IMG/VR virus record: IMGVR_UViG_3300027710_000034
Span: 1-54,412 of that record
DNA from: a virus
Reading direction: 5' to 3' (one strand)
Length of the DNA stretch: 54,412 nucleotides
Below are positions 11,554 through 44,772 of the stretch, piece by piece (the first letter of the stretch is position 1; each line of letters opens with the position of its first letter). The notes under the pieces are model-generated. The model was not told the DNA's origin and searched no databases. It worked only from the letters and a program-made list of their open reading frames with translations. The position numbers and the translations under genes were made by a program.

Positions 11554-11629
<76 letters not shown>

Positions 11630-11637
11630 TAATTATC

Positions 11638-11911
11638 CAGTATTCTAGAACCTACTGGAGAGACCTATGCCAGACTAACAGACGGGGAACGCTGGCGAAT
11701 ATCGGATTCCTTACCGCAATCTAGAATGGGGTTAACCGATAGGGTGTATAGAATAGAATAAGCAGTACCGTCTGCTGAACCACCGTATATACCTTCGGAT
11801 TATTCGGTGAAAACAAAACGGCAAGTTTATAGTCAAACTACTCGCATACCGTATGGTGTATGGAGTCTGTCGGGAATGTTTGATGTGGGTGTCGAGACGT
11901 GAGACACCCAT
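11638..11911 (+). ncRNA. Unidentified structured RNA, about 270 nt, with pseudoknot
   Basis: No ORF of note. Helices I can place: CCAGTA/TACTGG at its 5' end, GCCAG/CTGGC, TATCGG/CCGATA, GCAG/CTGC, CACCG/CGGTG around a TTCG tetraloop, AGTTT/AAACT, and a final hairpin TGGGTGTC/GACACCCA before TTTT. The loop of the first hairpin contains ATTCTAGA, exactly complementary to TCTAGAAT near 11722, so a loop-loop or pseudoknot pairing is likely. It lies between tRNA-Thr and tRNA-Asn. I cannot match it to RNase P RNA or tmRNA. Confidence 0.55.
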
Positions 11912-11913
11912 TT

Positions 11914-11988
11914 TCCCTAATGGCGCAGCGGTAGCGCAGTTGACTGTTAATCAATTGGTCGGTGGTTCGAATCCATCTTAGGGAGCCA
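11914..11988 (+). tRNA. tRNA-Asn(GUU)
   Basis: Acceptor TCCCTAA/TTAGGGA, anticodon loop with GUU, T-loop TTCGAAT, encoded GCCA end. Confidence 0.93.
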
Positions 11989-11994
11989 GTTTAT

Positions 11995-12073
11995 CGCGGA
12001 GTAGAGGAGTCTGGTCGTCCTCGCTGGTCTCATAAGCCGGAAATCGTTGGTTCAAATCCAACCTCTGCAACCA
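11995..12073 (+). tRNA. Initiator tRNA-fMet(CAU)
   Basis: Anticodon CAU with acceptor CGCGGAG against CTCTGCA, leaving an unpaired C1-A72 end, the hallmark of bacterial initiator tRNA, plus AACCA 3' end and T-loop TTCAAAT as in E. coli tRNA-fMet. The usual three G-C pairs in the anticodon stem are only partly kept (the last pair is U-G). Confidence 0.85.
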
Positions 12074-12221
12074 GTTTGAATGTAATGGAAGTTCCTGTGG
12101 CGACCAAGCGATTGGGGGAAGATAGGAACGTAAAGAGCGAAATTACCGACAGTAGCGTGTCGACACCTCAGTTGCCATTATGTTCATTAAAAAGTTTTTT
12201 GAAATTATTTTCAAAAATGTA
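12074..12221 (+). ncRNA. Structured spacer RNA
   Basis: Holds no credible gene. GTTCCT (about 12090) pairs with AGGAAC (about 12126) enclosing CCAAGCGATTGG, a GNRA-type hairpin. An AT-rich inverted repeat, TTTTTGAAA with TTTTCAAAAA, ends the stretch at about 12216, just before a promoter; it may act as a weak terminator. Confidence 0.35.
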
Positions 12222-12250
12222 TTGACAATTACCTTAATATAGGGTATAGT
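12222..12250 (+). promoter_or_regulatory. Sigma70-like promoter of the giant RNA
   Basis: TTGACA at 12222-12227, 17-bp spacer, TATAGT at 12245-12250. No start codon with a ribosome-binding site or long frame follows; the product appears to be the structured RNA. Confidence 0.8.
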
Positions 12251-12704
12251 TGAAAAATAGAAATGGCGGTATAGCGTCATTAGAATAATCCAGGGAAACT
12301 TGGAAAAAGCAGGGACTCCTACGTAACTGCGCCAGTAATGGTTCATCTATACAAGCCTGAACAAACTCGAAAGAGTCCGTCGGTGGAATGGCGGTAGGCA
12401 GTAAGTAATGGTCGAAGGTCCGAAAGGATAGGTTACAGAGCCGAATCGGTGAGTAACTAAATGGGGTGGTACCCATGCCAAGGCAAACCAACATTGCGAT
12501 TGCTGAATGTTAACAGGTAGTTATTGAGTCTGACCTCGCAAGGAAAGGCAAGATAGCAATACAAACGAAGAAAGTATGGACATACAGTGCTGTGCTGGAC
12601 TCGTGAAGTATGGTTGATTAGTCCGCAAGACGAAAGACATTAGGAGTGTGGTATTCCGTATCTAACAAGATATGGAGCAACTGGAGCAGCACTTCTTGGT
12701 AGGT

Positions 12705-12774
12705 TCGCAAATTGCTTAATGGTAAAGCAACAGTCTCTTAAACTGTCGATCTGGGTTCAACTCCTGGTTTGTAT
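12705..12774 (+). tRNA. tRNA-Lys(CUU)-like domain inside the giant RNA
   Basis: Good D-arm GCTT/AAGC, anticodon arm ACAGT/ACTGT with loop CTCTTAA (CUU) and T-arm with TTCAACT, but the acceptor has only about five pairs and no CCA is encoded. It sits between the two arms of a perfect 10-bp helix of the surrounding RNA. It may be a domain and not a free tRNA. Confidence 0.55.
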
Positions 12775-13110
12775 ATAAAAAGCGAAAGACTGCTCCAGTG
12801 CTACGTGAAAGGTGCTTAATACCTTAGTCGCAAGGCAATAGGGTCTACGGAAGCTCGCAAGGCAGAAGTAGTTATTCGGATTGAAGACGTAGGTTCTTAG
12901 CGGAACCGAACTGCTCGCAAGGCAGACGGAAGAATGATGGATGAATAGCGTAGCATGATAGTGGAAACGCCACCACTTTAAAAAGGCAGCACTGAGTGAT
13001 ACTAGATGACCAGCGATGGCACTAGTGGATAAAGGATTAACACTTCTCGCAAGGAAGTCGGTACGGTCCAAAGGCACTCATCAATTCAGGAGTAATCTCA
13101 TCCTGTCCTA

Positions 13111-13191
13111 AGACTTATTAGATGAGTGCACTGCCCGTCACTAATACGGGAGGTTCTGGAACCCAGTGCATTCTTCTAATAAGTTTTTTTT
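13111..13191 (+). terminator. Three-way-junction element with U-tail, 3' end of the giant RNA
   Basis: ACTTATTAGA (13113-13122) pairs with TCTAATAAGT (13175-13184); inside, GAGTGCACTG pairs with CAGTGCATTC with one G-U; two side hairpins, CCCGT/ACGGG and GGTT/AACC, complete a three-way junction. Eight T residues (13184-13191) follow the closing stem, so it can work as an intrinsic terminator. It is a diverged second copy of the element at 11456. Confidence 0.65.
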
Positions 13192-13194
13192 GTT

Positions 13195-13270
13195 GGGGAA
13201 TTAGCTCAGTTGGTAGAGCGTCTGCCTTGCACGCAGAAGGTCAACGGTTCGAGACCGTTATTCTCCACCA
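13195..13270 (+). tRNA. tRNA-Ala(UGC)
   Basis: Acceptor GGGGAAT/ATTCTCC, anticodon loop with UGC, T-loop TTCGAGA, encoded CCA. Starts 4 bases after the U-tail. Confidence 0.94.
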
Positions 13271-13398
13271 AGTTAGACCACCTCTGCTGAACCCGCGAAA
13301 GGGTAAAGATATAGTTGCAACTGTATTCTTTATCTGGGAAGATCGAAGCGTCCGGACGTAATTCGATCAAGGCACACTGCAGGTGGTCGCTCTTTTTT
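13271..13398 (+). ncRNA. Compact structured RNA with terminator tail
   Basis: GACCACCT (13276-13283) pairs perfectly with AGGTGGTC (13381-13388), followed by CGCTC and six T. Inside are ACCC-GCGAAA-GGGT, TAAAGA/TTCTTTA around the palindrome AGTTGCAACT, and GATCGAA/TTCGATC around GTCCGGAC. No ORF is likely. It looks like an independent small RNA or a structured terminator between tRNA-Ala and tRNA-Leu. Confidence 0.55.
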
Positions 13399-13400
13399 AT

Positions 13401-13477
13401 GCCCGTGTAGTCCAATTGGCAGAGGCGTCTGGTTTAGGTCCAGAATGTTGGGAGTTCGAGTCTCTCCACGGGTACCA
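13401..13477 (+). tRNA. tRNA-Leu(UAG), short variable loop
   Basis: Acceptor GCCCGTG/CACGGGT, anticodon loop TTTAGGT (UAG), T-loop TTCGAGT, CCA encoded. The variable region is only about 5 bases, whereas bacterial tRNA-Leu normally has a long variable arm. Confidence 0.85.
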
Positions 13478-13483
13478 TATTAT

Positions 13484-13559
13484 GCCTCTGTAGCTCAGTT
13501 GGTAGAGCATCGGTCTGAAGAACCGAGTGTCGGGGGTTCGATTCCCTCTGGAGGCACCA
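13484..13559 (+). tRNA. tRNA-Phe(GAA)
   Basis: Acceptor GCCTCTG/TGGAGGC, anticodon stem TCGGT/ACCGA with loop CTGAAGA, T-loop TTCGATT, encoded CCA. Confidence 0.95.
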
Positions 13560-13560
13560 C

Positions 13561-13654
13561 GGTCCCTTAGTTTAGCGGTAAAACACCTGACTTATATTCA
13601 GCATCGTCTCCAGATTAGAGAGCGTCGTAGGTTCGAATCCTACAGGGACTACCA
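13561..13654 (+). tRNA. tRNA with anticodon UAU (Ile?), long variable arm
   Basis: Acceptor GGTCCCT/AGGGACT, loop CTTATAT giving UAU, T-loop TTCGAAT and CCA. The variable region of about 24 bases forms an arm (GTCTC/GAGAGC), a class II feature not expected for tRNA-Ile. The first anticodon-stem pair is C-C. Amino-acid identity is therefore uncertain. Confidence 0.8.
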
Positions 13655-13659
13655 TTTTT

Positions 13660-13745
13660 GGATAGGTGGGTGAGTGGTTAATACCAGCAGACTGTAAATC
13701 TGCCGCAGTAATGCTACGTTGGTTCGAATCCAACCCTGTCCACCA
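13660..13745 (+). tRNA. tRNA-Tyr(GUA)
   Basis: Acceptor GGATAGG/CCTGTCC, anticodon loop CTGTAAA, class II variable arm of normal tyrosine type, T-loop TTCGAAT, CCA. Confidence 0.93.
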
Positions 13746-13750
13746 GTTTA

Positions 13751-13827
13751 GGCTCGTTAGATCAGTTGGTTAGATCGCTAGCCTGTCACGCTAGAGGCCA
13801 CGGGTTCAAGTCCCGTACGAGTCGCCA
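13751..13827 (+). tRNA. tRNA-Asp(GUC)
   Basis: Anticodon loop CTGTCAC flanked by a 5-bp GC-rich stem, T-loop TTCAAGT, GCCA end. Confidence 0.94.
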
Positions 13828-13943
13828 ATATACTGCGGTTTGTTTGCATAGAATAGAGGCAGGGTCGACCCTGTGAAACCCCATTGAGCAAACAGTAATA
13901 CAGAGCAGCGGGGACTGTTCCGTTTAGGTATAAATAAGTTTGT
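13828..13943 (+). ncRNA. Short structured spacer RNA
   Basis: No gene. TGTTTGC pairs with GCAAACA around the perfect palindrome CAGGGTCGACCCTG; further ACTG/CAGT options exist. A TATAAATA motif at 13929-13936 stands just before tRNA-Gly and may be a late promoter. Confidence 0.35.
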
Positions 13944-14017
13944 GCTTCGTTGGCGTAGGGGTAACGTATCAGGCTTCCAACCTGAGGTCGTGAGTTCGAT
14001 TCTCACACGAAGCTCCA
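13944..14017 (+). tRNA. tRNA-Gly(UCC)
   Basis: Acceptor GCTTCGT/ACGAAGC, anticodon loop with UCC, U73 discriminator typical of Gly, TCCA end. Confidence 0.93.
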
Positions 14018-14025
14018 AGTTTAAT

Positions 14026-14107
14026 GCCCAAGTATCCCTCTCCGCTACGAACGGAGCCAAAGGTAACTGGAAGTAAGATGCAGGTTCGAATCCTGTCTTG
14101 GGCTCCA
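14026..14107 (+). tRNA. Aberrant tRNA-Arg(ACG)-like gene with rearranged arms
   Basis: A perfect acceptor GCCCAAG/CTTGGGC, normal T-arm GCAGG/CCTGT with TTCGAAT and encoded CCA enclose an anticodon arm CTCCG-CTACGAA-CGGAG, whose loop is that of Arg(ACG). That arm begins 7 bases after the acceptor, where the D-arm should be. A D-arm-like hairpin, CCA-AAGGTAAC-TGG, instead lies between anticodon arm and T-arm. The discriminator is U. It may be a D-armless class II-like tRNA, a rearranged gene or a tRNA mimic. Confidence 0.55.
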
Positions 14108-14163
14108 GATTTATCACGAATGTTAGATTCGCGATAATTACATATAACAACAAGGAATTAATT

Positions 14164-14373
14164 ATGAATATCAAGACTTTTATGGCAGCAGCAGTTATTG
14201 CACTTACAGCAGCGTGTACTCCTAGTGAGGATACAGCAACAGTAGCAGAGGCCGCTGGTCCAGCAGCAGATGAAGCACTTGCTACAGCAAATGCAACAGA
14301 AGAAGCAGCAGAAGCACCTCTAGATGCTGAAGCAGCAGCACCTGCTCTTGGTGAAAATGAACAACCAAAGTAA
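14164..14373 (+). CDS. Small Ala/Glu-rich lipoprotein
   Basis: A 69-residue protein with a signal peptide and lipobox LTAAC (cysteine 18), followed by a low-complexity Ala/Glu/Asp tail. It would be lipidated and tethered to a host membrane. Start ATG 14164 follows AAGGAA; the longer upstream frame reads through a tRNA and is rejected. It lies between tRNA genes. Small phage lipoproteins sometimes act in superinfection exclusion; nothing here shows that directly. Confidence 0.8.
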   Translation: MNIKTFMAAAVIALTAACTPSEDTATVAEAAGPAADEALATANATEEAAEAPLDAEAAAPALGENEQPK

Positions 14374-14382
14374 TTAAAGTTT

Positions 14383-14459
<77 letters not shown>

Positions 14460-14465
14460 GTTTTT

Positions 14466-14540
14466 GTCGGTGTGTTGTAACGGTAACATGCAGGTCTCCA
14501 AAACCTTGCGATCGGGGTTCGAATCCTCGCACCTTCGCCA
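14466..14540 (+). tRNA. tRNA-Trp(CCA)
   Basis: Anticodon loop CTCCAAA (CCA), G73 discriminator and encoded CCA as expected for Trp. The acceptor has two mismatches (positions 2-71 and 3-70), so the gene is slightly degenerate. Confidence 0.82.
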
Positions 14541-14558
14541 TTTATAAACGGGTGACGT

Positions 14559-14999
14559 ATGTATGATGAAGCAAGAGAAGCAATTCTAAATTCAAGTGAA
14601 ACGTCATCTGTTTATATCGGTGCCGATTCAATAAGATACAAGAAGCGTAGTGGTGAGTGGTATGCCAAGTATTCCACTGTTATTATTCTTCACAGGGATT
14701 CTAAGCATGGTGGTCAATTATTCTCTAGGAACGTAGAGATGCGTGACTTCGGTAACTTACGGCAACGTCTGATCACCGAAGCAGGATTTGCCATTGAAGC
14801 AGCAACTGCAATTGTTGATGTGATTGGTAATCGACATCTAGAAATCCACCTTGATATCAATCCAGACCCTAAACATAAATCTAACATTGCTGTTAAAGAA
14901 GCATTGGGGTATGTTAAGGGAACTACTGGTCTTGATGCTAAAATCAAACCAGATTCTTTCGCAGCAACACATGCTGCTGATCACGTGGTAAGACATTAA
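14559..14999 (+). CDS. YkuK/DUF458-like RNase H-fold protein
   Basis: A 146-residue protein with the features of the YkuK family: YIGADSIR near residue 19, STVIILHRDSKHGG, LRQRLITEAGFAIEAA, then HLDINPDPKHKSN and a C-terminal KPDSFAATHAADH. The conserved acidic and histidine residues imply an RNase H-like fold with metal binding, but the activity is not established. It lies within the tRNA cluster, so RNA processing is an attractive guess only. Confidence 0.82.
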   Translation: MYDEAREAILNSSETSSVYIGADSIRYKKRSGEWYAKYSTVIILHRDSKHGGQLFSRNVEMRDFGNLRQRLITEAGFAIEAATAIVDVIGNRHLEIHLDINPDPKHKSNIAVKEALGYVKGTTGLDAKIKPDSFAATHAADHVVRH

Positions 15000-15002
15000 T
15001 TT

Positions 15003-15077
15003 GCAGGATTAGCTCAGCGGTAGAGCATCTCGTTTACACCGAGGCGGTCGGCGGTTCAATCCCGTCATCCTGTACCA
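15003..15077 (+). tRNA. tRNA-Val(UAC)
   Basis: Acceptor GCAGGAT/ATCCTGT, anticodon loop TTTACAC, T-loop TTCAATC, ACCA end. Confidence 0.94.
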
Positions 15078-15078
15078 G

Positions 15079-15154
15079 TGCCCCATGGTGCAATTGGCAG
15101 CACGTCTGATTTTGATTCAGAAGGTTCCACGTTCGAGTCGTGGTGGGGCATCCA
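15079..15154 (+). tRNA. tRNA-Gln(UUG)
   Basis: Acceptor TGCCCCA/TGGGGCA, anticodon stem TCTGA/TCAGA with loop TTTTGAT, TCCA end. Confidence 0.94.
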
Positions 15155-15159
15155 GATTA

Positions 15160-15249
<90 letters not shown>

Positions 15250-15253
15250 TAAT

Positions 15254-15289
15254 AAAAAGTGCCAAGGAAAAAAACTTGGCACTTTTTTT
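15254..15289 (+). terminator. Strong intrinsic terminator
   Basis: AAAGTGCCAAG (15256-15266) pairs perfectly with CTTGGCACTTT (15275-15285), followed by a run of T to 15289. It ends the first tRNA transcript. Confidence 0.92.
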
Positions 15290-15299
15290 ATTTTAGGGC

Positions 15300-15328
15300 T
15301 TGACAATTTCTACATTTCGAGGTATAGT
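15300..15328 (+). promoter_or_regulatory. Sigma70-like promoter, cassette type A
   Basis: TTGACA at 15300-15305, 17-bp spacer, TATAGT at 15323-15328, and the same leader as at 10634 with one change. It drives three tandem small genes. Confidence 0.87.
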
Positions 15329-15355
15329 GATATTATAGTTTGAAAGGAAATCGTT

Positions 15356-15541
15356 ATGGAAGTTTTTGTTTTGAAGGGTGGCATCGGGGTTCAGTTGGGC
15401 GTCTATGCATCTGAAGATGAAGCACGGGATGCCCACGGTGTATACATTCGTGACGGCGGTCGGTTCCTCGATTCCTACTATATCGTGCGGCAAGTAGTTG
15501 GTGCAACTGCAGATGCCGATGCGGATCGGATCTGGATCTAA
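15356..15541 (+). CDS. Tandem small-protein paralogue 1
   Basis: A 61-residue acidic protein opening with MEVFVLKGG and holding the family core GVYASEDEARDA. It shares this pattern with the next two genes, so the three arose by tandem duplication. A beta-beta-alpha fold is plausible. Function unknown. AAAGGA ribosome-binding site from the promoter cassette. Confidence 0.75.
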   Translation: MEVFVLKGGIGVQLGVYASEDEARDAHGVYIRDGGRFLDSYYIVRQVVGATADADADRIWI

Positions 15542-15557
15542 AGAAAGGAAATTGGTT

Positions 15558-15761
15558 ATGGAAGTTTTTGTTTTGATGGGTGCGATGGATCACGATGCGC
15601 ATTACGTTCTTGGTGTTTATGCTTCTGAACAAGAAGCAGTAGATGCTTTGGGTGTTTACCTTCGTGACCTCGATGAATCGTGGCATGATGAGTATTATGT
15701 CGATCGCCGTGTGCTCGGTGCACATGCGGAATATGATTCCGATCCTCATCGGTACCTCTAA
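15558..15761 (+). CDS. Tandem small-protein paralogue 2
   Basis: A 67-residue protein beginning MEVFVLMGA with core LGVYASEQEAVDALGVYL; the first 7 residues are identical to the preceding gene and the core is very similar. Start ATG 15558 follows AAAGGAA; the longer upstream frame overlaps paralogue 1 and is rejected. Confidence 0.75.
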   Translation: MEVFVLMGAMDHDAHYVLGVYASEQEAVDALGVYLRDLDESWHDEYYVDRRVLGAHAEYDSDPHRYL

Positions 15762-15782
15762 AGTTTTTATGGAAGGTTGATT

Positions 15783-15959
15783 ATGCAAGTTTATGTCGTG
15801 AACAATGAATCTCCTGGTGGAGATCACTCGATTATGGTTGGTATCTACTCGACCGAAGAAAAGGCGAGAGAGATGATCAAATTCTTGGAACGTGAAACTC
15901 CTGAATGGTATCCTACCTACTCAGTTGAAGACGTTGATCCAGAAGATCCGATGTATTAA
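15783..15959 (+). CDS. Tandem small-protein paralogue 3
   Basis: A 58-residue protein, MQVYVVNNE at the start and VGIYSTEEKAREMI in the core: the most diverged of the triplet. Weak ribosome-binding site GGAAGG about 8 bases before the ATG. It ends just before a tRNA gene. Confidence 0.72.
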   Translation: MQVYVVNNESPGGDHSIMVGIYSTEEKAREMIKFLERETPEWYPTYSVEDVDPEDPMY

Positions 15960-15964
15960 AGTTT

Positions 15965-16040
15965 AGACGAGTAGCTCAATGGTTAGAGCCGACCGCTCAT
16001 AACGGTTTGGTTGGGGGTTCGAGTCCCTCCTCGTCTACCA
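15965..16040 (+). tRNA. tRNA with anticodon CAU (elongator Met or Ile2)
   Basis: Acceptor AGACGAG/CTCGTCT, anticodon loop CTCATAA, T-loop TTCGAGT, ACCA end. The D-loop AATGGTTA and variable loop resemble tRNA-Ile2, whose CAU is modified to read AUA, but elongator Met cannot be excluded. Confidence 0.9.
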
Positions 16041-16045
16041 GTTAG

Positions 16046-16094
16046 GGTTGCTACTTAATAGGCACGCGAGGAATCACGGTTAGTTCCTCAACCA
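16046..16094 (+). ncRNA. Minihelix-like tRNA remnant
   Basis: GGTT and GAGGAA pair with the continuous 3' strand TTCCTCAACC, as in an acceptor stacked on a T-stem, with a small hairpin in place of D and anticodon arms and CCA at the end. Too short for a tRNA; probably a deletion remnant between two tRNA genes. Confidence 0.3.
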
Positions 16095-16100
16095 GTTTAC

Positions 16101-16176
16101 GGATCATTAGCTCAGTTGGTAGAGCAGCGGACTCTTAATCCGCTTGTCGTAGGTTCGATCCCTACATGATCCACCA
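16101..16176 (+). tRNA. tRNA-Lys(CUU)
   Basis: Acceptor GGATCAT/ATGATCC, anticodon stem GCGGA/TCCGC with loop CTCTTAA, T-loop TTCGATC, ACCA. Confidence 0.95.
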
Positions 16177-16181
16177 GTTTC

Positions 16182-16257
16182 GGACGCTTAGCTCAGTAGG
16201 TAGAGCAACGGGCTTTTAACCTGTTGGTCCTGGGTTCGAGTCCCAGAGCGTCCACCA
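16182..16257 (+). tRNA. tRNA-Lys(UUU)
   Basis: Acceptor GGACGCT/AGCGTCC, loop CTTTTAA, T-loop TTCGAGT, ACCA. Confidence 0.95.
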
Positions 16258-16274
16258 TTTTAAAGGAGTTTGTT

Positions 16275-16451
16275 ATGAGTAAAATGATACTTGCATTTCT
16301 GTTCATTTTTACCTGTGTGTTCTTCGGTATTCAAATTGTTCGCGATTTGAATAAATCTGAAAAATTAAGCTTGACTAAATTGCTTGCTTATAGTATAGTG
16401 TGTACTGTGATTACGATGGTCGTGATTACTTCAATTGTTTTGATTTTCTAA
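16275..16451 (+). CDS. Small two-helix membrane protein
   Basis: A 58-residue protein with hydrophobic segments at about 4-22 and 38-57 joined by a charged loop. Start ATG 16275 follows AAAGGAG. A promoter lies inside the second half of the gene and serves the SPFH gene downstream. Function unknown. Confidence 0.7.
   Translation: MSKMILAFLFIFTCVFFGIQIVRDLNKSEKLSLTKLLAYSIVCTVITMVVITSIVLIF
16371..16399 (+). promoter_or_regulatory. Sigma70-like promoter inside a small gene
   Basis: TTGACT at 16371-16376, 17-bp spacer, TATAGT at 16394-16399, about 65 bases before the SPFH lipoprotein start. Confidence 0.7.
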
Positions 16452-16465
16452 GGAATAAAGTTATT

Positions 16466-17263
16466 ATGAAAAGTGTTACTAAAGTCGTTCTTCTCGCTGG
16501 TCTGATGGCAACGACTGCTGCCTGTACTCGTATTGAAACAGGTGAAGTTGGTGTTCGGCGTTCGTTCGACAAGACCATTGAAACTACTGAGTTGATGCCA
16601 GGATCAATCAACCAGACAATGTTCGGTGATGTTATGACATTCCCAACCAAGGACGTGCAGGTTGATGTTTCTGACTTGACTCCACTTGCGTCGGACAACT
16701 CGACAGTTGCTGACTTTGACATGGCAGTAATCTATTCGATTAATCCTGGTTCGGTTGCCGAACTGTATATCGAAAAGAATCGTGGTTTCCATGCTGACAC
16801 TGAAGAAGGCGATACACTTTTGATGTATAATTACATTCGTCAGTTGGGTCGTAATGCTGCCTACAAGGTTGCTCGTCGTTACGAGTCATTGAAGATGGCA
16901 GACAATCGTGCTGAGATTGAGCAACTGGTTCGCCAAGAGATTGTCGCGCAACTTGCTTCTGAGAAACTCGATGGTGCTATCTCGATTTCACAGGTTCTTG
17001 TTCGTCAGGTAAAACCTGCTGCGAATATCGTAGCGTCTGCTAACCAACTTGTCCAGGCACAAAACGCTGAGAAGCAGAAGTTGGTAGAGGTTCGTACCGC
17101 AAAGTTGGAAGCAGAACGTATTGCTGCTCTTAATGCCAACGCTGGTGCTACTAAATACATGGAAGCAACTGCTCTCGTGACAATCGCGGAAGCAGTTAAG
17201 GAAGGTAAGGTTTCTACCATTATTGTTCCTTATGACTTCAAGGGTATCGTGAACGTCAAGTAA
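16466..17263 (+). CDS. SPFH/Band 7-domain lipoprotein
   Basis: A 265-residue protein with a lipoprotein signal (lipobox TAAC, cysteine about 20) followed by the prohibitin/stomatin-like opening IETGEVGVRRSFDKTIE, and a coiled-coil region rich in Ala, Glu and Lys near the C-terminus (about 195-235). SPFH proteins form membrane-associated cages or scaffolds. A lipid anchor in place of a transmembrane helix would put it on the periplasmic side of a host membrane. It is flanked by tRNA genes. The role in infection is unknown. Confidence 0.87.
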   Translation: MKSVTKVVLLAGLMATTAACTRIETGEVGVRRSFDKTIETTELMPGSINQTMFGDVMTFPTKDVQVDVSDLTPLASDNSTVADFDMAVIYSINPGSVAELYIEKNRGFHADTEEGDTLLMYNYIRQLGRNAAYKVARRYESLKMADNRAEIEQLVRQEIVAQLASEKLDGAISISQVLVRQVKPAANIVASANQLVQAQNAEKQKLVEVRTAKLEAERIAALNANAGATKYMEATALVTIAEAVKEGKVSTIIVPYDFKGIVNVK

Positions 17264-17271
17264 GTTTGAAT

Positions 17272-17358
17272 GGAAGGTGGGCAGGACGGTAATGCAACGC
17301 ACTGCTAATGCGTCTACCAGAAATGGTAGAGTGGGTTCGACTCCCACACCTTCCGCCA
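17272..17358 (+). tRNA. tRNA-Ser(GCU)
   Basis: Acceptor GGAAGGT/ACCTTCC, loop CTGCTAA, long variable arm CTACC/GGTAG, GCCA end. Confidence 0.95.
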
Positions 17359-17359
17359 T

Positions 17360-17437
17360 GGTGGATGTAGCTCAGTTGGTTAGAGTGTCGGCTTGTGATG
17401 CCGAATGTCGCGGGTTCAAGTCCCGTCATTCACCCCA
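17360..17437 (+). tRNA. tRNA-His(GUG)
   Basis: Anticodon stem TCGGC/GCCGA with GUG. An encoded extra G at position -1 faces C73, the His identity feature. CCA encoded. Confidence 0.95.
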
Positions 17438-17438
17438 T

Positions 17439-17514
17439 GGGGATGTAGTCCAAAGGCAGAGACAGAGGACTTAAAATCCTTCCAGTGTGGGTTCGAGTCC
17501 CACCATCCCTACCA
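17439..17514 (+). tRNA. tRNA-Leu(UAA), short variable loop
   Basis: Acceptor GGGGATG/CATCCCT, anticodon stem GAGGA/TCCTT with loop CTTAAAA, T-loop TTCGAGT. As with the Leu(UAG) gene, the variable loop is about 5 bases and not the expected long arm. Confidence 0.85.
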
Positions 17515-17518
17515 TTTC

Positions 17519-17594
17519 GCGTCTGTAGCTCAGTTGGTAGAGCACTCCCCTGATAAGGGAGAGGTCGCAGGATCGAGGCCTGCCAGACGCACCA
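17519..17594 (+). tRNA. tRNA-Ile(GAU)
   Basis: Anticodon stem TCCCC/GGGGA-type with loop CTGATAA. The T-loop reads ATCGAGG, so the nearly universal T54 is replaced by A. CCA encoded. Confidence 0.92.
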
Positions 17595-17596
17595 AT

Positions 17597-17668
17597 GCCA
17601 GCAGTGCAAGTGCACGACTGACTCTCATAAGGTTGGTTCGGTAGGAGCGTTACCTACTGCTGGTACCA
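17597..17668 (+). tRNA. Degenerate tRNA-like gene with CAU loop
   Basis: Good acceptor GCCAGCA/TGCTGGT with ACCA, but a shortened D-arm, a weak anticodon stem around CTCATAA and a non-canonical T-loop (AGCGTTA between GTAGG/CCTAC). Probably a decaying CAU tRNA or a tRNA mimic. Confidence 0.5.
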
Positions 17669-17669
17669 T

Positions 17670-17747
17670 GTCACGATGGCAGAGTGGTCCAATGCACAGG
17701 TCTGCAAAACCTGAAAACCGTGGGTTCGAATCCCACTCGTGACTCCA
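17670..17747 (+). tRNA. tRNA-Cys(GCA)
   Basis: Acceptor GTCACGA/TCGTGAC, anticodon stem CAGGT/ACCTG with GCA, U73 as expected for Cys, TCCA end. Confidence 0.94.
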
Positions 17748-17764
17748 TTCTAAAGGAATATATA

Positions 17765-18001
17765 ATGACAGATGTTATTGCAATTGATAAGTATCGTTTG
17801 TTGGTTGAGCGTATCGAAACCATTGAACAAGAAATTGATGCCAAGAAACTAGATCGTAAGAATGTTTACGCTGATGTTAAGAGCGAAGGTTACGATGTTA
17901 AGGCAACTCGCCAGATTATTCGCCTCCGCAAAAAGGAAGCGCATGTTCGGCAAGAAGAAGATATGATTCTTGAAACATATCGCACTGCTATTGGTCTATG
18001 A
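17765..18001 (+). CDS. GapR/DUF2312-like nucleoid-associated protein
   Basis: A 78-residue basic helical protein. RLLVERIETIEQEI, VYADVKSEGYDVKATRQIIRL and the final helix match GapR, the alphaproteobacterial protein that clamps overtwisted DNA ahead of polymerases and assists topoisomerases. The length equals the cellular protein without extra domains. It starts at ATG 17765 behind AAAGGAA, inside the tRNA cluster. A phage copy could organise or relax phage DNA, or compete with the host protein. The family also hints at the host class. Confidence 0.85.
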   Translation: MTDVIAIDKYRLLVERIETIEQEIDAKKLDRKNVYADVKSEGYDVKATRQIIRLRKKEAHVRQEEDMILETYRTAIGL

Positions 18002-18006
18002 TTTAT

Positions 18007-18081
18007 GGCCCCGTCGTCTACTGGCTAGGACACGTCACTTTCACTGACGAGAAGGCGGATCGAAACCGCTCGGGGCTACCA
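18007..18081 (+). tRNA. tRNA-Glu(UUC)
   Basis: Acceptor GGCCCCG/CGGGGCT, loop CTTTCAC, T-loop ATCGAAA with A at position 54 as in tRNA-Ile(GAU), ACCA end. Last tRNA of the island. Confidence 0.93.
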
Positions 18082-18093
18082 TAAAGGAATGAC

Positions 18094-18846
18094 ATGGATA
18101 TATTAGTCGCATTACTTACGTCAAGAGACTCTATCAAACTAACCAGATGCATCGAGAGTGTTCTTCCTCAAACCAGTAATGTGGTTGTGGTATGCAACAC
18201 TCTCGATTTTTCATATGTAGAACAGGCAAGAAAAGTTGCCGATGCATATAATCTAGAGTTTTTAGTTACTGAATCTAATGGCACACCAGCGAGAGGAAAG
18301 AACTCTGTTCTAGAGATTTTCCGATCGCGATCGCACGCATATTACATGCAAGTTGATGCGGATGATTATCTTACTCCCGATGCATTGATCAAACTTGACA
18401 AGATTGTAACTGAGAATCCAGATGTTGATGTCATTGGTTTAGTCGATGGAGCGATGACGTATAATGGAAGTGCAACAACCAGTAATGCATTTTTGTCCAA
18501 TGGTAATGTGTTCAAATTTGCTGACGTGCAGGGTACACATAAACTGCGATTAGTAGAACTTGGTAAATTATTATCGAGCAATCTACAGTATAATCGAATG
18601 CTGTTGTATTCAAGCAAGGCAATAAACACCTTTGACTTTGACGAGAAATTTATTGGATCAGAAGATATTGTTGCATCTTATAAATTATACTATGATCCAG
18701 ATATAAATTATGTTCTAACGGATGAGCATCTTTATGTGTATGACTTGGAAGATAGTGGCAATTTCCATACCTTCTTGAGTAATGCGTCTGAAATTAAGAA
18801 AGTACTTAAAGAATTGAAAGTCATTTTGAATGAGTCTGCAGTATAA
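18094..18846 (+). CDS. GT-A family glycosyltransferase
   Basis: A 250-residue cytosolic enzyme of the family 2 type: nucleotide-binding start MDILVALLTSR, the acceptor-proximal TPARGKNS near residue 68, and the DxD metal site in YYMQVDADDYL (about 90-100). It would transfer a sugar from an NDP-sugar to an unknown acceptor. It heads a six-gene cassette whose members overlap or nearly overlap; ribosome-binding site AAAGGAA. It is unlike the second glycosyltransferase at 44772. Confidence 0.83.
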   Translation: MDILVALLTSRDSIKLTRCIESVLPQTSNVVVVCNTLDFSYVEQARKVADAYNLEFLVTESNGTPARGKNSVLEIFRSRSHAYYMQVDADDYLTPDALIKLDKIVTENPDVDVIGLVDGAMTYNGSATTSNAFLSNGNVFKFADVQGTHKLRLVELGKLLSSNLQYNRMLLYSSKAINTFDFDEKFIGSEDIVASYKLYYDPDINYVLTDEHLYVYDLEDSGNFHTFLSNASEIKKVLKELKVILNESAV

Positions 18847-19465
18847 AACAGATCTGAAAACAGCAATAAAGATTGTGGGTAAATTGATTAAAAAACCACA
18901 CAACACAATCTTTTTGTTTCAGTTACTGCATGCTACGAACGCACCTTCTTTGAAGTGGACATATCAAAAACTACTGGAAACAGAGCAGGGTGGTGGGGTC
19001 GCATATTCATCAGAAGAAGTATACGAATACTTTCCTACTCTTGTGAATAGACCAGAAGGTTCTGTCGGTAAACACTGCTACGATATGTTCCCGAACCAAG
19101 AACTCCTGATAAAAATAAGCAAACGAAAATCTAACGATACCTGGATTGAAGCGAAGCATCCATACAATTGGATGGCAAGAAGATACAGAGATACACACGA
19201 CACATGGCACATACTAACAGGGTATGATACAACCATACTGGGGGAGATGTGTCTTGCGATGTTCTCCTTTGCGCAAACTAAATCGCTCGGTTGGTTGCTC
19301 ATTTCATTTGTTGGGTTTGTCCACAGAGGGATGAAACTGTCTGACATTGGTTTGATACGACAAGCATATTTACGAGGAAAGAATGCCAAGTTCTTACTTG
19401 CAGAGAATTATGATAAATTGTTCGATGAGGATTTAATCGCAGCAAGAGCACGGTTGGGTCTATGA
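18830..19465 (+). CDS. Coq4 homologue (ubiquinone biosynthesis)
   Basis: A 211-residue protein with the Coq4 signature HDxxHx11E: HDTWH at 123-127 and E139 in HILTGYDTTILGEM, preceded by YNWMARRYRDT. Coq4 is a zinc protein of the coenzyme Q pathway, recently tied to C1 decarboxylation/hydroxylation of the ring; homologues occur in alphaproteobacteria. The C-terminal half has a hydrophobic stretch (SLGWLLISFVGF) typical of the family. Its ATG overlaps the glycosyltransferase stop and its stop overlaps the next ATG. I know of no established phage Coq4, so a moonlighting role on another lipid or quinone is possible. Confidence 0.85.
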   Translation: MSLQYKTDLKTAIKIVGKLIKKPHNTIFLFQLLHATNAPSLKWTYQKLLETEQGGGVAYSSEEVYEYFPTLVNRPEGSVGKHCYDMFPNQELLIKISKRKSNDTWIEAKHPYNWMARRYRDTHDTWHILTGYDTTILGEMCLAMFSFAQTKSLGWLLISFVGFVHRGMKLSDIGLIRQAYLRGKNAKFLLAENYDKLFDEDLIAARARLGL

Positions 19466-20085
19466 TTCGTATTGACAGTAATTATCCTATAGAAGAAATG
19501 TTGGAATTCTGTAAAGAATCCAAGAATGACACACGTCCTGGTGCCGTTAATATGGATTTCGTTGACTGGGAAAACAAACCACATACTCTACTATATCTTC
19601 TGTATAAAGAGAAGAGATTCGATGGCCCCACAAACGGATATGTAATCTGCAAGAAAGGTGATCGAATTGTTTGTGGTCATGGATTTTATGTCTCAGAAAT
19701 AGATAGAATGGTATGCATGGGATGCCGCACCTATACTGTTCCAGGTATAAATTGTCATGCATTACAGGGCGACATCAAAGACTTCATTTTCGATATTGTT
19801 AGAAAAAATGGGATGGCAGGGTTTTTTATCTCGATGAACGAATATAATAAACGATTCGTCCATGGGTATAATAAAATTAATGATCCCGTCAATTTCAAAA
19901 CTTCTTTTCGTGATGAAACTGGACAGTGGTGGGCGAGGAAAGATAGAAAAATCTCTCCGACAGTACCATGCGACTTCCCGATTAACTTGAAAAATGTAAA
20001 ACAGTGGATTATATATCATTTGTGGGATTCTTCCTATGAAGAAGAATTGAATGTGAAATTGAAAACTTTGGAATGGATTGATTGA
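19462..20085 (+). CDS. Unknown protein of the Coq4/radical-SAM cassette, possibly GNAT-like
   Basis: A 207-residue protein. The central strand-helix order GYVICKKGDRIVCGHGFYVS, then TYTVPGINCHALQ, is compatible with a GNAT acyltransferase fold, but the pantetheine loop is not clear. Several aromatic residues and cysteines are spread through it. It overlaps Coq4 upstream by ATGA and abuts the radical SAM gene, so a shared pathway is likely. Function not assigned. Confidence 0.8.
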   Translation: MIRIDSNYPIEEMLEFCKESKNDTRPGAVNMDFVDWENKPHTLLYLLYKEKRFDGPTNGYVICKKGDRIVCGHGFYVSEIDRMVCMGCRTYTVPGINCHALQGDIKDFIFDIVRKNGMAGFFISMNEYNKRFVHGYNKINDPVNFKTSFRDETGQWWARKDRKISPTVPCDFPINLKNVKQWIIYHLWDSSYEEELNVKLKTLEWID

Positions 20086-21683
20086 TGGCATTAGATGGTA
20101 TCATTTTTGGTGGGATGATCAATTCAGACGAACCAACACGACCACAGGATTTGTCTGGCATCAGTTATAGTTCTGTTCACAGAAGCGCAGGTTCTCATAG
20201 AATTGCCTCGTTCTTACGTCAACATGGACTTGACATTGAAGTCGTAGATTTCGCCCCATCTTGGAAATTTGAAGAATTTCAAGAGTTGATTCGTTCCCGA
20301 ATGACACCAACAATGAAGTTTGTTGGACTCGGTGCGGTGTTCAATATGAACACGCAAACTCTCTTTCGGTGTTTTGCTTGGTTGAAACAGACTTATCCAG
20401 ATGTACTGTTGGTAACAGGATCCACTGATTTTTATAATCTTCACTTCATTCCAGTAGACTACATGGTGGTTGGTTATGGCGAACTCGCTATTTTGGAGAT
20501 CTTAAACGGTACTGCAAAATATACTGACGAGGTTATTGATAAGGAAGGTAACAAGCGTCGAACGGTTCATGCACTTAAACAGTATCCTGCGTATCCAATG
20601 CGTAATCTTTCAATCGATTATGAAAAACGAGATTTCCTACAACCATTTGAGTTGCTTACTATGGAAACAAGTCGTGGGTGTAGATTTAAGTGTGCGTTTT
20701 GCACTTATCCTGTTTTGGGAGTGAAAGATGATCATACCAGATGCTCTGATGACTTTCATGATAATCTTATGCGTAACTATGATAACTATGGTGTCTATCG
20801 ATATTCGATCGCAGACGAAACTTTTAATGATCACAGCGAGAAAATTGTCAAGTACGCAGACGTTGTAGAGAAACTTCCATTTAAACCAAATTTCGGTGGA
20901 TATATCAGAGCAGATTTGCTGCACACAAGACCACAAGATATAGAACAGTTAGCAAGAATGCGATTCAACGGGCAGTTCTATGGTGTCGAATCCTTCCATC
21001 GTCCAAGTGCTGCTGCCATTGGTAAAGGGATGGATCCTGCTAAAATACAGCAAGCAATTCTTGACACCAAGGATTACTTCATGAAACACAATGGATACTA
21101 TCGAGGAACCCTCAGTTTTATTGTAGGATTGCCGCACGAGACAGAAGAAACTATGAACGAAACAATTAAATGGTGTGACGAAAACTGGAAAACCAACAGT
21201 ATGCAATGGACTTCATTGATTATTGCCAGCGATCACGCCAATGTTAAGCAAAACACATTATCTACGACGTATGAAAAGCAAGGTTATACTCTTGTTGATT
21301 CAGAAGAAATTATGCTCGATGAATCTCATCCTGATCTCAAACGAATACTGCAAAGCAATTTTGTAGTCCCGGAATTAAAGACTTACATGCAGACCATTGT
21401 CCGTAATCTAAAACCAACGGTATTGTTACATCACTGGAAAAGCAATACAGGTATGACAGAAAGAGATGCCTTGTTGTGGATTGCCAATAATGTCTGGGGT
21501 GCCGAAAAGTATATGAATTTCGGAGTAGAACATTGGAAAATGGCAGAATGGTATGTTGCAGGTAAAACTGATCAGGATATGATGGGTTCGTATCAGGATC
21601 TAGGTGGTGTTAGACCGTCACTACATACTAAAATTGATTTTATTGAAAAATATAAGCAACAAAAACTTAATGTCACGCAGTAA
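20085..21683 (+). CDS. B12-binding-type radical SAM enzyme
   Basis: A 532-residue enzyme. Residues about 5-140 form a Rossmann-like domain with HRIASFLRQHGLDIEVVDF and a GSTDFYNL/VVGYGE pattern like the cobalamin-binding region of class B radical SAM proteins; the radical SAM core begins with the 4Fe-4S motif CRFKCAFC (C199, C203, C206) followed by a TIM-barrel segment with YGVESFHR and SFIVGLPHETEE. The lower-axial His motif for B12 is not clear. Substrate unknown. ATG 20085 overlaps the previous stop. Confidence 0.87.
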   Translation: MALDGIIFGGMINSDEPTRPQDLSGISYSSVHRSAGSHRIASFLRQHGLDIEVVDFAPSWKFEEFQELIRSRMTPTMKFVGLGAVFNMNTQTLFRCFAWLKQTYPDVLLVTGSTDFYNLHFIPVDYMVVGYGELAILEILNGTAKYTDEVIDKEGNKRRTVHALKQYPAYPMRNLSIDYEKRDFLQPFELLTMETSRGCRFKCAFCTYPVLGVKDDHTRCSDDFHDNLMRNYDNYGVYRYSIADETFNDHSEKIVKYADVVEKLPFKPNFGGYIRADLLHTRPQDIEQLARMRFNGQFYGVESFHRPSAAAIGKGMDPAKIQQAILDTKDYFMKHNGYYRGTLSFIVGLPHETEETMNETIKWCDENWKTNSMQWTSLIIASDHANVKQNTLSTTYEKQGYTLVDSEEIMLDESHPDLKRILQSNFVVPELKTYMQTIVRNLKPTVLLHHWKSNTGMTERDALLWIANNVWGAEKYMNFGVEHWKMAEWYVAGKTDQDMMGSYQDLGGVRPSLHTKIDFIEKYKQQKLNVTQ

Positions 21684-21694
21684 TAAATATTGCC

Positions 21695-22255
21695 ATGACA
21701 GAAAAAATGAAAATCGCAATTACAGGACATACTAGTGGACTTGGGCTTAGCATATACAACCACTTCAATCAAAAACCTGAATGCGCAGTGAGAGGAATAA
21801 GCAGGGCAACAGGATTCGATCTAACAACTGATGCAGATGAAGTTATCCAACTAATCAAATCAAACAACTTTGATTATTTCTTCAATAATGCATATGTTGA
21901 TGGTGTTCAATCTAAACTGTTGCGGGAATTGTCTGAGCATACATGCGTAATATCATCTGGGTCTATGGCAGCAGATGCAGCGCAGGTAAAACGCGAACCA
22001 TATTATGTGAACAAATTTGATTTAGAGTGCACGCATAGATCGATTAAAAGAAATAATAAATTACCTATGTTATTGCTGAAGATGGGATATCTGGAGAACT
22101 ATGTGGATAAAGAACCTGTCTCATATGACACAATCGTAAGTGCTATAGATTTCTGGATGCAGAATCCTAGAGTGAGTATGATTGAATTTGACAACATAAA
22201 CTATTCAAAAAACTTTCCAGAAATTAACAAATACATCGAACAAAAAAATGATTAA
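21695..22255 (+). CDS. SDR-like NAD(P)-binding protein, short
   Basis: A 186-residue Rossmann-fold protein with the dinucleotide loop ITGHTSGLG at residues 9-17, DYFFNNAY as the NNAG-like strand and a VKREPYYVNKFDLE segment that supplies the catalytic Tyr-xxx-Lys (YYVNK). It is shorter than the usual 250 residues and lacks the C-terminal substrate lobe. Likely an oxidoreductase or epimerase partner of the neighbouring enzymes. Confidence 0.8.
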   Translation: MTEKMKIAITGHTSGLGLSIYNHFNQKPECAVRGISRATGFDLTTDADEVIQLIKSNNFDYFFNNAYVDGVQSKLLRELSEHTCVISSGSMAADAAQVKREPYYVNKFDLECTHRSIKRNNKLPMLLLKMGYLENYVDKEPVSYDTIVSAIDFWMQNPRVSMIEFDNINYSKNFPEINKYIEQKND

Positions 22256-22766
22256 GGTTATCGGTAACATAGATATAGATCTGGTCGTTAACCAGTACAA
22301 GGCGATTGAAGACCAAATACAGTGGGTGGAGATGCCTCCACACCACAAACAAGCAGGTTTGCAGTATGCCGAAGAAACAGAAAATCTCTGGGCAGGTGGA
22401 ACAGGAAAACTGACAGGTCTGGTCAATCCAGAGCATCAATATAACAATCTAAATCCATTGTTACGAGGAACTATTTTCGAAGATATTATCAATGAGCACA
22501 AATTGGTAAGAACTCGCTTTATGTGGGTAAATCGTATGAGTTGTTACAGTGTGCATAGAGATCTGAGTCCTAGAGTGCATGTTCCAATAATTACAAATCC
22601 AGAATGCTATTTCGTACTCAAACAAGGTTCAGAAGGATTGATTGAGCACCTACCAGCAGGTAAGGTTTACTGGGCTGACACACGCATACACCACACATTC
22701 ATGAATTGCTCACTGGAACCAAGATTGCACCTGATTGGTGTTCCTGTCAGCGAACAAAATTATTAG
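22248..22766 (+). CDS. Aspartyl/asparaginyl beta-hydroxylase-like 2OG-Fe(II) oxygenase
   Basis: A 172-residue cupin-type protein. The metal triad is visible as H103 and D105 in YSVHRDLS and a distal histidine in DTRIHHTFMN (148/149), with R159 in PRLHLIGV placed to bind 2-oxoglutarate. It would hydroxylate an unknown substrate using oxygen and 2-oxoglutarate. Last gene of the cassette; its ATG overlaps the SDR stop. Confidence 0.8.
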   Translation: MIKVIGNIDIDLVVNQYKAIEDQIQWVEMPPHHKQAGLQYAEETENLWAGGTGKLTGLVNPEHQYNNLNPLLRGTIFEDIINEHKLVRTRFMWVNRMSCYSVHRDLSPRVHVPIITNPECYFVLKQGSEGLIEHLPAGKVYWADTRIHHTFMNCSLEPRLHLIGVPVSEQNY

Positions 22767-22774
22767 GAGTTATT

Positions 22775-23092
22775 ATGCCAGTATATGATTTTATAAACAC
22801 AGAAACAGGTGAAGAGTGGGAAGAAAAGATGTCATACGATGACATGAAAACACTCACGAACGATGGAACAGTTAAGATTCTCTACAAGAAGATTAACTTC
22901 TTGCATGCTCCTGGTTCCGACGGTGGCGGGAAGGTTCCTGATCACTTCAAGGAAGTCATGTCTCGCGTCGCCGATGCCAATCCCAATTCTCCTCTCGCAA
23001 AGGAGTATGGTTCTAAATCTGCCAAGGATGTTAAGACACGTGATGTGGTAGAAAAAATCAGAAAAAAAGCAGGTGGATCTCTAATTGGATGA
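22775..23092 (+). CDS. Hypothetical protein with FmdB-like start
   Basis: A 105-residue protein starting MPVYDFINTETGEEWEE, which resembles the first strand of FmdB-type zinc ribbons (usually MPxYEFxC) but the zinc cysteines are absent. A glycine-rich linker and a Lys-rich helical tail follow. Ribosome-binding site TAGGAG. Probably a degenerate or adapted member of that family seen in T4-like phages. Confidence 0.72.
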   Translation: MPVYDFINTETGEEWEEKMSYDDMKTLTNDGTVKILYKKINFLHAPGSDGGGKVPDHFKEVMSRVADANPNSPLAKEYGSKSAKDVKTRDVVEKIRKKAGGSLIG

Positions 23093-43434: not shown

Positions 43435-44772
43435 ATGGTTAAAGTTATTGTCGCCGATTCTAAACTAGATTGCGAGCATCTGCTCGGTCAATATCTAGAT
43501 GAGAGTCATTTCGACATTGTGGTCAATGAAGATACAGACTGTTATAAAGAGTCTGATTCTCTGCTCGATACAGAGTTGACTGAAAACAGGATTGCATTTA
43601 AGTTTCGTAAGAACTTCTTCTCGCCAGAAGAACAGGAGCAGGCATACATTGGTCTGCGCGAAGCAGCAACCGAATCACAGAATCGTGGTCTGGCAGCAGG
43701 TCCACGTGGTGAGTTGCTAGGCGTAGAAGGTCGCGGTGGTCGCGACTGGGTAACTGATTACGAACTCGAGATTCTTGATTTTCTGATGACAGATAAGGGT
43801 CGACTGATCGACGAACTTAGTATCGAGAGCATTCGTGCTAAGCATGCAGGTGCACCACGATCTAATGCAGATGAAACTCGAGGCGCAGTCTGGTTGCGCA
43901 GTCAAGTATGTAAAGTATATCCAGAATATTTTGGTTGGTTCGACGTATGGGTCGACAGTCTAGAAACAAAGAGTAAAGAAGATGTTGCAAAGGAAGCGCG
44001 AAATATCGCAGAGAACTGGATTTCAACAACCAACTATGCTAAGTCGGTTTTCTCAGGCGTTGCTGGATGGTATGACCGATATCCTAGAATTCCTTTCGGT
44101 CGTGCTACTACTTACACTCGTGACAATTTTGATAAGTTTAAGTTGGCCTTTCCTTTTCTACAATCTCTTAATCGCGGGTTTAAAGAACTCCTCCCTCGGC
44201 GTTGGTCTAACCAAAAGAGTGCCGTGGATACAATCGATAGTCGATTCGTGGTCCCAGAAACAGTATTCACCACGATCACCGTCAACAAGTCTTTCCGAAC
44301 GGCAGCGCATCGTGACGCAGGCGATTTTGCTGATGGTCTCAGTAATCTTCTGGTCGTTGGTAGTGGTGACTATACTGGCGGTTATCTAATCTTTCCTGAG
44401 TATCGCATCGCAGTGAATGTTCGTCCAGGTGACTTGTTGCTAGTCAGCAATCATGAGATCATTCACGGTAACACCGAGATTAAACTGACAAGTCCAGATG
44501 CTGAGCGTATTTCGTTGGTTTGCTATTTGCGCGAGAACATGCTAGAACTTGGTTCATATGAATATGAAACAACTCGCGAGCAATATGTCATTGACCGCAG
44601 AACTAATAGAGAACACCACCACTATCGTCCACTCTGGAATGGCGTATCTCCAGGAATGTGGGACGAACAAGAATGGTATGACTACCTCGAAACTAAACTT
44701 GGTCGAGATACAGTTGCCAAGTATCATCCTAAAGCATACCAAACAACATCAACACTTGGAGATCTATTTTAA
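43435..44772 (+). CDS. TET/JBP-family 2OG-Fe(II) dioxygenase (5-methylcytosine hydroxylase)
   Basis: A 445-residue protein. The C-terminal double-stranded beta-helix has the TET/JBP signature: HRD (H292, D294) in FRTAAHRDAGDFADG, GDYTGGYLIFPEY, DLLLVSNHEIIHGN (H344) and R358 in ERISLVCYLRE; upstream FGRATTYTRDNFDKF is also typical. Phage TET enzymes hydroxylate 5-methylcytosine in phage DNA as the first step of hypermodification. The next gene is a glycosyltransferase, as in known phage TET loci. No cytosine methyltransferase is in the window; it may be elsewhere. The C-terminus ends TSTLGDLF, resembling a sliding-clamp-binding peptide. Confidence 0.88.
   Translation: MVKVIVADSKLDCEHLLGQYLDESHFDIVVNEDTDCYKESDSLLDTELTENRIAFKFRKNFFSPEEQEQAYIGLREAATESQNRGLAAGPRGELLGVEGRGGRDWVTDYELEILDFLMTDKGRLIDELSIESIRAKHAGAPRSNADETRGAVWLRSQVCKVYPEYFGWFDVWVDSLETKSKEDVAKEARNIAENWISTTNYAKSVFSGVAGWYDRYPRIPFGRATTYTRDNFDKFKLAFPFLQSLNRGFKELLPRRWSNQKSAVDTIDSRFVVPETVFTTITVNKSFRTAAHRDAGDFADGLSNLLVVGSGDYTGGYLIFPEYRIAVNVRPGDLLLVSNHEIIHGNTEIKLTSPDAERISLVCYLRENMLELGSYEYETTREQYVIDRRTNREHHHYRPLWNGVSPGMWDEQEWYDYLETKLGRDTVAKYHPKAYQTTSTLGDLF

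Follow-up and report, generated by a model that had tools for sequence, protein, structure and literature searches.

Why would a phage encode a homologue of Coq4, a protein known from ubiquinone synthesis? The question is raised by a virus fragment of 54,412 bases (IMG/VR record IMGVR_UViG_3300027710_000034; this whole stretch is the window below), in which six open reading frames (ORFs) at 18094-22766 are packed end to end on the plus strand. Besides the Coq4-family protein they encode a family 2 glycosyltransferase (GT, or GT2), a third protein that we call P3, a radical S-adenosylmethionine (SAM) enzyme, a short-chain dehydrogenase/reductase (SDR)-like protein and a hydroxylase-like 2-oxoglutarate (2OG) oxygenase (Table 1). 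An earlier note, made from the letters of this DNA, had described six overlapping genes; the six packed same-strand genes stand, with overlap at four of the five junctions (-17, -4, -1, +11 and -8 nt) and a spacing of 11 nt at the fifth. We find that a viral Coq4 family with a conserved small core of genes, carried by uncultured T4-like phages, is real and absent from the literature searched. Its interpretation as a pathway is plausible, and our tentative answer, at a little under an even chance, is that these phages use the cassette as an exchangeable module for tailoring lipids or glycolipids.

A Coq4 homologue in phages

The window protein matches the Coq4 family PF05019 with 51.8 bits (Pfam cut-off 22.9, E 8.3e-14) and finds 3MSQ and 6E12 in the PDB. 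Its HDxxHx11E metal motif is kept in 33/33 distinct viral Coq4 sequences, and a motif of this type, with a spacing of 10-12, occurs in 129/129 scanned cellular sequences. R118, H123, D124, H127, G138 and E139 are among the positions that are invariant across 49 viral and cellular Coq4 sequences. The AlphaFold2 model of the protein (confidence measure pLDDT 91) matches Nostoc Alr8543 (6E12) with Z 20.6 over 193 residues at a root-mean-square deviation of 2.7, and 3MSQ (Npun02000094) with Z 18.8, while all other structures reach Z ≤3.6. The phage protein thus has its predicted fold in common with these two cyanobacterial proteins, to which it is only ~21-23% identical over the structural alignment; Alr8543 was solved with oleic acid and magnesium. 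These results bear out the earlier claim of a Coq4 homologue with the complete motif, and the case for a genuine homologue with a predicted all-helical Coq4 fold is solid.

The earlier note had also known of no established phage example of Coq4, and our searches agree. No match to Coq4 was found in 50,697 INPHARED phage records, using as queries the window protein and a protein of the second lineage described below; P3 has no match in the same records. A fold search of BFVD returned no viral Coq4-like match, and no paper naming a phage Coq4 was found in the literature searched.

Cellular relatives and the ubiquinone question

Phage Coq4 could be a ubiquinone auxiliary metabolic gene that performs the C1 (oxidative) decarboxylation of ubiquinone precursors and sustains respiration, the other cassette genes being unrelated cargo. 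In animal COQ4 the HDxxHx11E motif, for which the mutants H142A-H146A and D143A-E158A were tested, binds zinc and supports zinc-dependent C1 decarboxylation in vitro (PMC7615680), and a review describes the reaction of COQ4 in human cells as a single-step oxidative decarboxylation (PMC11495197). The phage protein shares PF05019 and the full metal motif with the eukaryotic enzyme, and the viral sequences are nearest to proteobacterial Coq4, both of which fit a role in ubiquinone synthesis. However, unlike eukaryotic COQ4, the viral proteins form one separate clade (100/100 support) on a long stem, and their genes are stably paired with those of GT2 and P3 across deep divergence. No ubiquinone-synthesis family was found among the Coq4 neighbours tested by Pfam.

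The cellular relatives were reached through a Cupriavidus match in a plasmid collection; scanning genomes with the viral alignment had at first returned none. The viral clade lies beside a proteobacterial subfamily found in Caulobacteraceae, Sphingomonadaceae, Cupriavidus and Comamonadaceae, whose members are the nearest cellular relatives (31-42% identity to the window Coq4) and have the motif intact. In contrast to the phage loci, most of those viewed for this subfamily hold a solitary chromosomal gene, and in the order tested its members occur nearly always in genomes that contain UbiD. Among 150 genomes of the order of Phenylobacterium haematophilum, 33 carry the subfamily and 31 of these also carry UbiD (Fisher p 4e-6, a value that overstates the case because the genomes are related and not independent). 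Other Coq4 classes are present in 35 of the 59 UbiD-lacking genomes. This co-occurrence indicates that the subfamily nearest to the phages is probably not a replacement for the ubiquinone decarboxylase UbiD, although such replacement is an indirect and not a strictly defining mark of a ubiquinone-type COQ4. It is the classes in the UbiD-lacking genomes that may mark the true ubiquinone enzyme. Together with the neighbouring genes, the UbiD pattern lowers the ubiquinone reading, which we consider unlikely.

Cellular Coq4 itself is diverse: genomes of the order of G012 (labels with G or L are our own) contain up to four paralogues of several classes. In Cupriavidus, a Coq4 relative follows flavin monooxygenase-like and alpha/beta hydrolase-like genes with a TetR-like regulator upstream (L080:2355-5699; gene names read from the ORF sequences), a possible operon hint to the cellular role of Coq4.

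A conserved core in a variable locus

A neighbourhood search in viral metagenomes, proposed as a check in the earlier note, recovered the viral Coq4 clade in at least 55 IMG/VR contigs (33 distinct sequences; search with the viral alignment) and a recurrent GT2-Coq4-P3 core. Among 55 loci, 14 have GT-Coq4-P3, 40 have Coq4 directly after gp17, and one (L036) has Coq4 without GT and P3. Scanning with P3 yielded further GT-Coq4-P3 loci, including L242, L246 and L247, and the GT is present in all loci of this kind. The three genes are kept together in the same order from 90% down to ~41% Coq4 identity, and they occur on a jumbo-sized contig of 360,683 bases (L246/L284), where a radical SAM gene lies ~3 kb upstream of the GT. 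Each of 11 records checked has a single Coq4 copy. Because viral motifs were used to collect the viral set, its unity may partly reflect sampling; a viral scan with a cellular Coq4 query returned nothing, and at that sensitivity there was no sign of a second viral acquisition.

The stable unit is GT2-Coq4-P3, and the radical SAM, SDR and hydroxylase genes are exchangeable. The radical SAM gene adjoins the triple in many contigs, lies 19 kb away in G003 and has no Coq4 nearby in L018, L279 and L286 (L279 and G003 being the same kind of phage). Among the loci compared, the SDR and hydroxylase genes are common only to the window and L009, whose copies are 81% and 91% identical. Sister cassettes add genes for PP-loop (QueC-like, weak), SPASM radical SAM, sulfotransferase-like, GDSL-like (weak), AMP-binding ligase and methyltransferase proteins, of which L242 gains the last two, and the L008 cassette includes a P3-related membrane protein. 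Since the extra enzymes vary between loci, the six genes of the window are one version of a variable locus. The earlier note had seen in the partners a small biosynthetic pathway; a set of biosynthetic enzymes is indeed present, but a single fixed six-gene pathway is not.

The cassette genes are also maintained as working proteins. We calculated ratios of nonsynonymous to synonymous substitution rates (dN/dS, Nei-Gojobori) for window genes against L001 or L009 and obtained 0.08-0.13 (GT 0.13, against L001; Coq4 0.10; P3 0.08; SDR 0.13; hydroxylase 0.09), and other Coq4 pairs gave 0.08-0.17. These low ratios indicate purifying selection on the genes tested, and together with the recurrence of the core in the same order in other contigs they argue that the cassette is not a chance assembly.

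The variability nevertheless bears on another explanation, in which the genes are hypervariable cargo acting singly on host metabolism and their order results from a recombination hotspot by the adjoining array of 25 tRNAs. The differing content of near relatives, the radical SAM genes that are distant or lack a Coq4 nearby, the GC content of the cassette (38.6% versus 42.2% for the window) and the Coq4 genes without GT, P3 or radical SAM all accord with it. However, GT2-Coq4-P3 stays intact at ~41% Coq4 identity and in the differently set 360-kb contig, and we regard independent cargo as more doubtful still than ubiquinone synthesis. Known phage auxiliary metabolic loci with 2OG oxygenases, desaturases, GTs and sulfotransferases resemble the Coq4 cassette in being variable loci of single-copy biosynthetic genes in T4-like phages, but Coq4 and the triple set the cassette apart from them.

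A second lineage with Coq4 between gp17 and gp18

In 40 contigs Coq4 comes right after gp17 (terminase), and in those that extend far enough gp18 (tail sheath) comes next. This second phage lineage lacks the cassette partners at its Coq4. In the loci viewed, Coq4 starts within a few nt of the gp17 stop, and a TATAAATA-like sequence (motif match) lies after or at the end of Coq4 and ahead of gp18, which together suggest that Coq4 is expressed with gp17. Two cultured relatives have no Coq4 at this site: gp18 follows gp17 directly in syn9 and after one short opposite-strand gene in Melnitz, so Coq4 looks like an insertion in the gp17-gp18 gap. A wider tree places the gp17-linked copies in one group (98/98) that is nested among the cassette-linked copies, whose context is also that of the deepest viral branch (L246, L247). 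The simplest reading of this nesting is that GT-Coq4-P3 is the ancestral arrangement and that Coq4 later moved to the gap.

No P3, radical SAM or cassette-type GT was found in G002, a 128.8-kb contig of this lineage. Approximately 8 kb upstream of its Coq4 are genes for a 2OG oxygenase, a GlcNAc-type GT, a fatty-acid desaturase, a sulfotransferase-like protein, a weak GT2 and a DUF6445/2OG-like protein, and most other members whose flanks are long enough have parts of this cluster equally far from Coq4. The same decoration-like cluster is seen as L218:11355-18757 (G002 106354-113756) and also encodes a 182-aa protein without an assigned family. In the cassette phages and the gp17 lineage alike, Coq4 has glycosyltransferase genes in its vicinity, often with acyl-chain genes too, which is suggestive and no more.

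P3 and the accompanying enzymes

P3, which the earlier note had left unnamed in its partner list, has no Pfam family, and none of nine members matches a Pfam GNAT family at E≤1. Its model (pLDDT 88.6) matches GNAT structures with a Foldseek probability of 1.00 and a VIA-align Z of up to 9.9 over ~140 residues, and we predict a GNAT acyltransferase fold. The best Foldseek E-values are to acyl-homoserine-lactone synthases. We rejected P3 as such a synthase because no autoinducer-synthase signature was found by Pfam in the nine members or by hhalign (probability 0.2%, with synthases from genomes of the order of G013). Homologues of P3 in other T4-like phages are 30-47% identical and often lie between nrdA- and nrdB-like genes, named here by reading the sequence without a profile test; in four distinct loci they adjoin Pfam-positive fatty-acid desaturases.

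The GT matches PF00535 (29.4 bits, cut-off 23.3), and D88, D90 and D91 of its DxD-type motif are invariant in nine homologues. Similarly, the radical SAM protein matches PF04055 (44.5 bits, cut-off 29.5) and has C199, C203 and C206 of the CxxxCxxC motif invariant in seven homologues; a B12-type architecture is likely, with a weak match to the B12-binding PF02310 (17.7 bits, cut-off 32.1). No named equivalog was accepted for it, the scores being far below the cut-offs: 64 versus 360 bits for TIGR04072, the best NCBIfam resemblance, and 50 versus 578 for HpnJ, both of them lipid/hopanoid B12-radical SAM equivalogs. The SDR-like protein is below the curated cut-off of PF01370 (12.9 versus 20.9 bits) and shows the Rossmann glycine and YxxxK motifs, and the hydroxylase-like protein reaches 21.7 bits with PF05118 (Asp_Arg_Hydrox; cut-off 22.6, E 2e-4).

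Small-molecule or nucleic-acid modification, in which a modified nucleoside, peptide or signal would be the joint product of PP-loop, radical SAM and GNAT-like enzymes, would agree with the PP-loop and extra SPASM/radical SAM genes of the sister cassettes, the nrdA/nrdB setting of P3 homologues and the top structural matches of P3, but it is improbable given the missing autoinducer-synthase signature and a Coq4 fold known with a hydrophobic ligand.

A possible lipid- or glycolipid-tailoring module

We favour lipid or glycolipid tailoring over ubiquinone synthesis. The helical fold of the Coq4-like protein would accommodate a hydrophobic substrate (isoprenoid or fatty-acyl), and the divalent metal at HDxxHx11E would act on the polar head group, by analogy with the C1 or oxidative decarboxylation by COQ4. 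P3 would transfer an acyl group, the GT would add a sugar, and the radical SAM, SDR and hydroxylase proteins would diversify the product. The likely target in the infected cell would be a lipid of the envelope or a lipid-linked glycan, and the purpose could be membrane function during infection or a surface change, for example against superinfection. If true, this would be a new route for phages to alter the host membrane or surface.

Several observations count towards lipid tailoring: the fold match to Alr8543 with its bound oleic acid and magnesium, the predicted GNAT fold of P3 and the desaturases beside its homologues, the ligase and methyltransferase of L242, the GT/desaturase/sulfotransferase-like/2OG cluster of the gp17 lineage, and the presence of UbiD alongside the nearest cellular subfamily. 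The recurrence of the triple down to ~41% identity and in the 360-kb contig counts for one module. The recurrent neighbours (desaturase, AMP-ligase, GNAT, GT, sulfotransferase-like) suggest chemistry on acyl lipids and glycans; of the quinone, lipid or surface glycan targets named in the earlier note, the quinone is weakened.

Other points weigh against lipid tailoring. The substrate and product proposed here are inferred from the genes. P3 is assigned by its predicted fold alone, with low Foldseek TM-scores (0.33-0.49 versus the query) and no support from its sequence. Aquatic T4-like phages may commonly carry desaturases, 2OG oxygenases, GTs and sulfotransferases, which may thus share a location with Coq4 and not a pathway, and the Coq4 of the gp17 lineage sits in the gp17 unit, apart from the GT/desaturase cluster.

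A more specific proposal, which we think somewhat unlikely, is that the virus-specific Coq4 branch belongs to a phage-directed GT2-Coq4-GNAT pathway with exchangeable tailoring enzymes, where it performs a new reaction on a lipid or lipid-linked glycan, and that in one lineage Coq4 was moved into the gp17 unit beside structural genes and so acts late in infection. The Coq4 reaction was assigned only recently and bacterial members of the family are largely uncharacterised. The small, strongly conserved viral branch and its two- or three-gene neighbourhood therefore offer a tractable way into roles of the Coq4 fold beyond ubiquinone.

Genomic setting of the cassette

Table 1. Genes of the cassette and its borders (window positions), with Coq4 and P3 loci in other contigs.
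Feature	Location	Strand	Basis
tRNA-Glu, last of 25 tRNA genes, directly before the cassette	18007..18081	+	ARAGORN
GT-A type glycosyltransferase, family 2, DADD motif, 250 aa	18094..18846	+	Pfam PF00535
Coq4-family protein, HDTWH-x11-E metal site, 211 aa	18830..19465	+	Pfam PF05019 and predicted fold
P3, predicted GNAT acyltransferase fold, 207 aa, without sequence family	19462..20085	+	structure model
Radical SAM enzyme, B12-type architecture likely, CRFKCAFC cluster motif, 532 aa	20085..21683	+	PF04055
SDR-like Rossmann protein, TGHTSGLG and YxxxK in sequence, 186 aa	21695..22255	+	weak profile matches
Aspartyl/asparaginyl beta-hydroxylase-like 2OG oxygenase, 172 aa	22248..22766	+	PF05118 just below cut-off
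Small protein, 105 aa, shifting border gene of the variable locus	22775..23092	+	position in relatives
Coq4 between gp17 and gp18 (examples)	L014:6289-7002, L065:8001-8669 and 38 more contigs		
P3 homologues near desaturases, several between nrdA-/nrdB-like genes	L255:8001-8666, L262:2060-2695, L266:7962-8651, L268:7989-8603		

The start of the radical SAM gene is taken as the ATG at 20085; the mechanical ORF list begins at a TTG at 20082. The 105-aa border protein is downstream of the cassette in the window and in L019, and upstream of the GT in L001, L002, L004 and L008 (43-90% identity). Small ORFs break up the tRNA array (11554-18081), together with genes for an RNase H-like protein (PF04308) and a Band 7/SPFH lipoprotein-like protein (16460-17263).

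In both Coq4 phage lineages gp17 shares ~50-57% identity with its counterparts in Synechococcus and Methylophilales phages. The matches of other genes are to Caulobacter Cr30, Stenotrophomonas DLP6, cyanophages or Microbacterium Pumpernickel, and together these matches fix no single host. Elsewhere in the window, adjacent genes at 43435-45581 resemble a Caulobacter phage Cr30 protein annotated as SNF2 DNA repair and the beta-glucosyl-HMC alpha-glucosyltransferase family.

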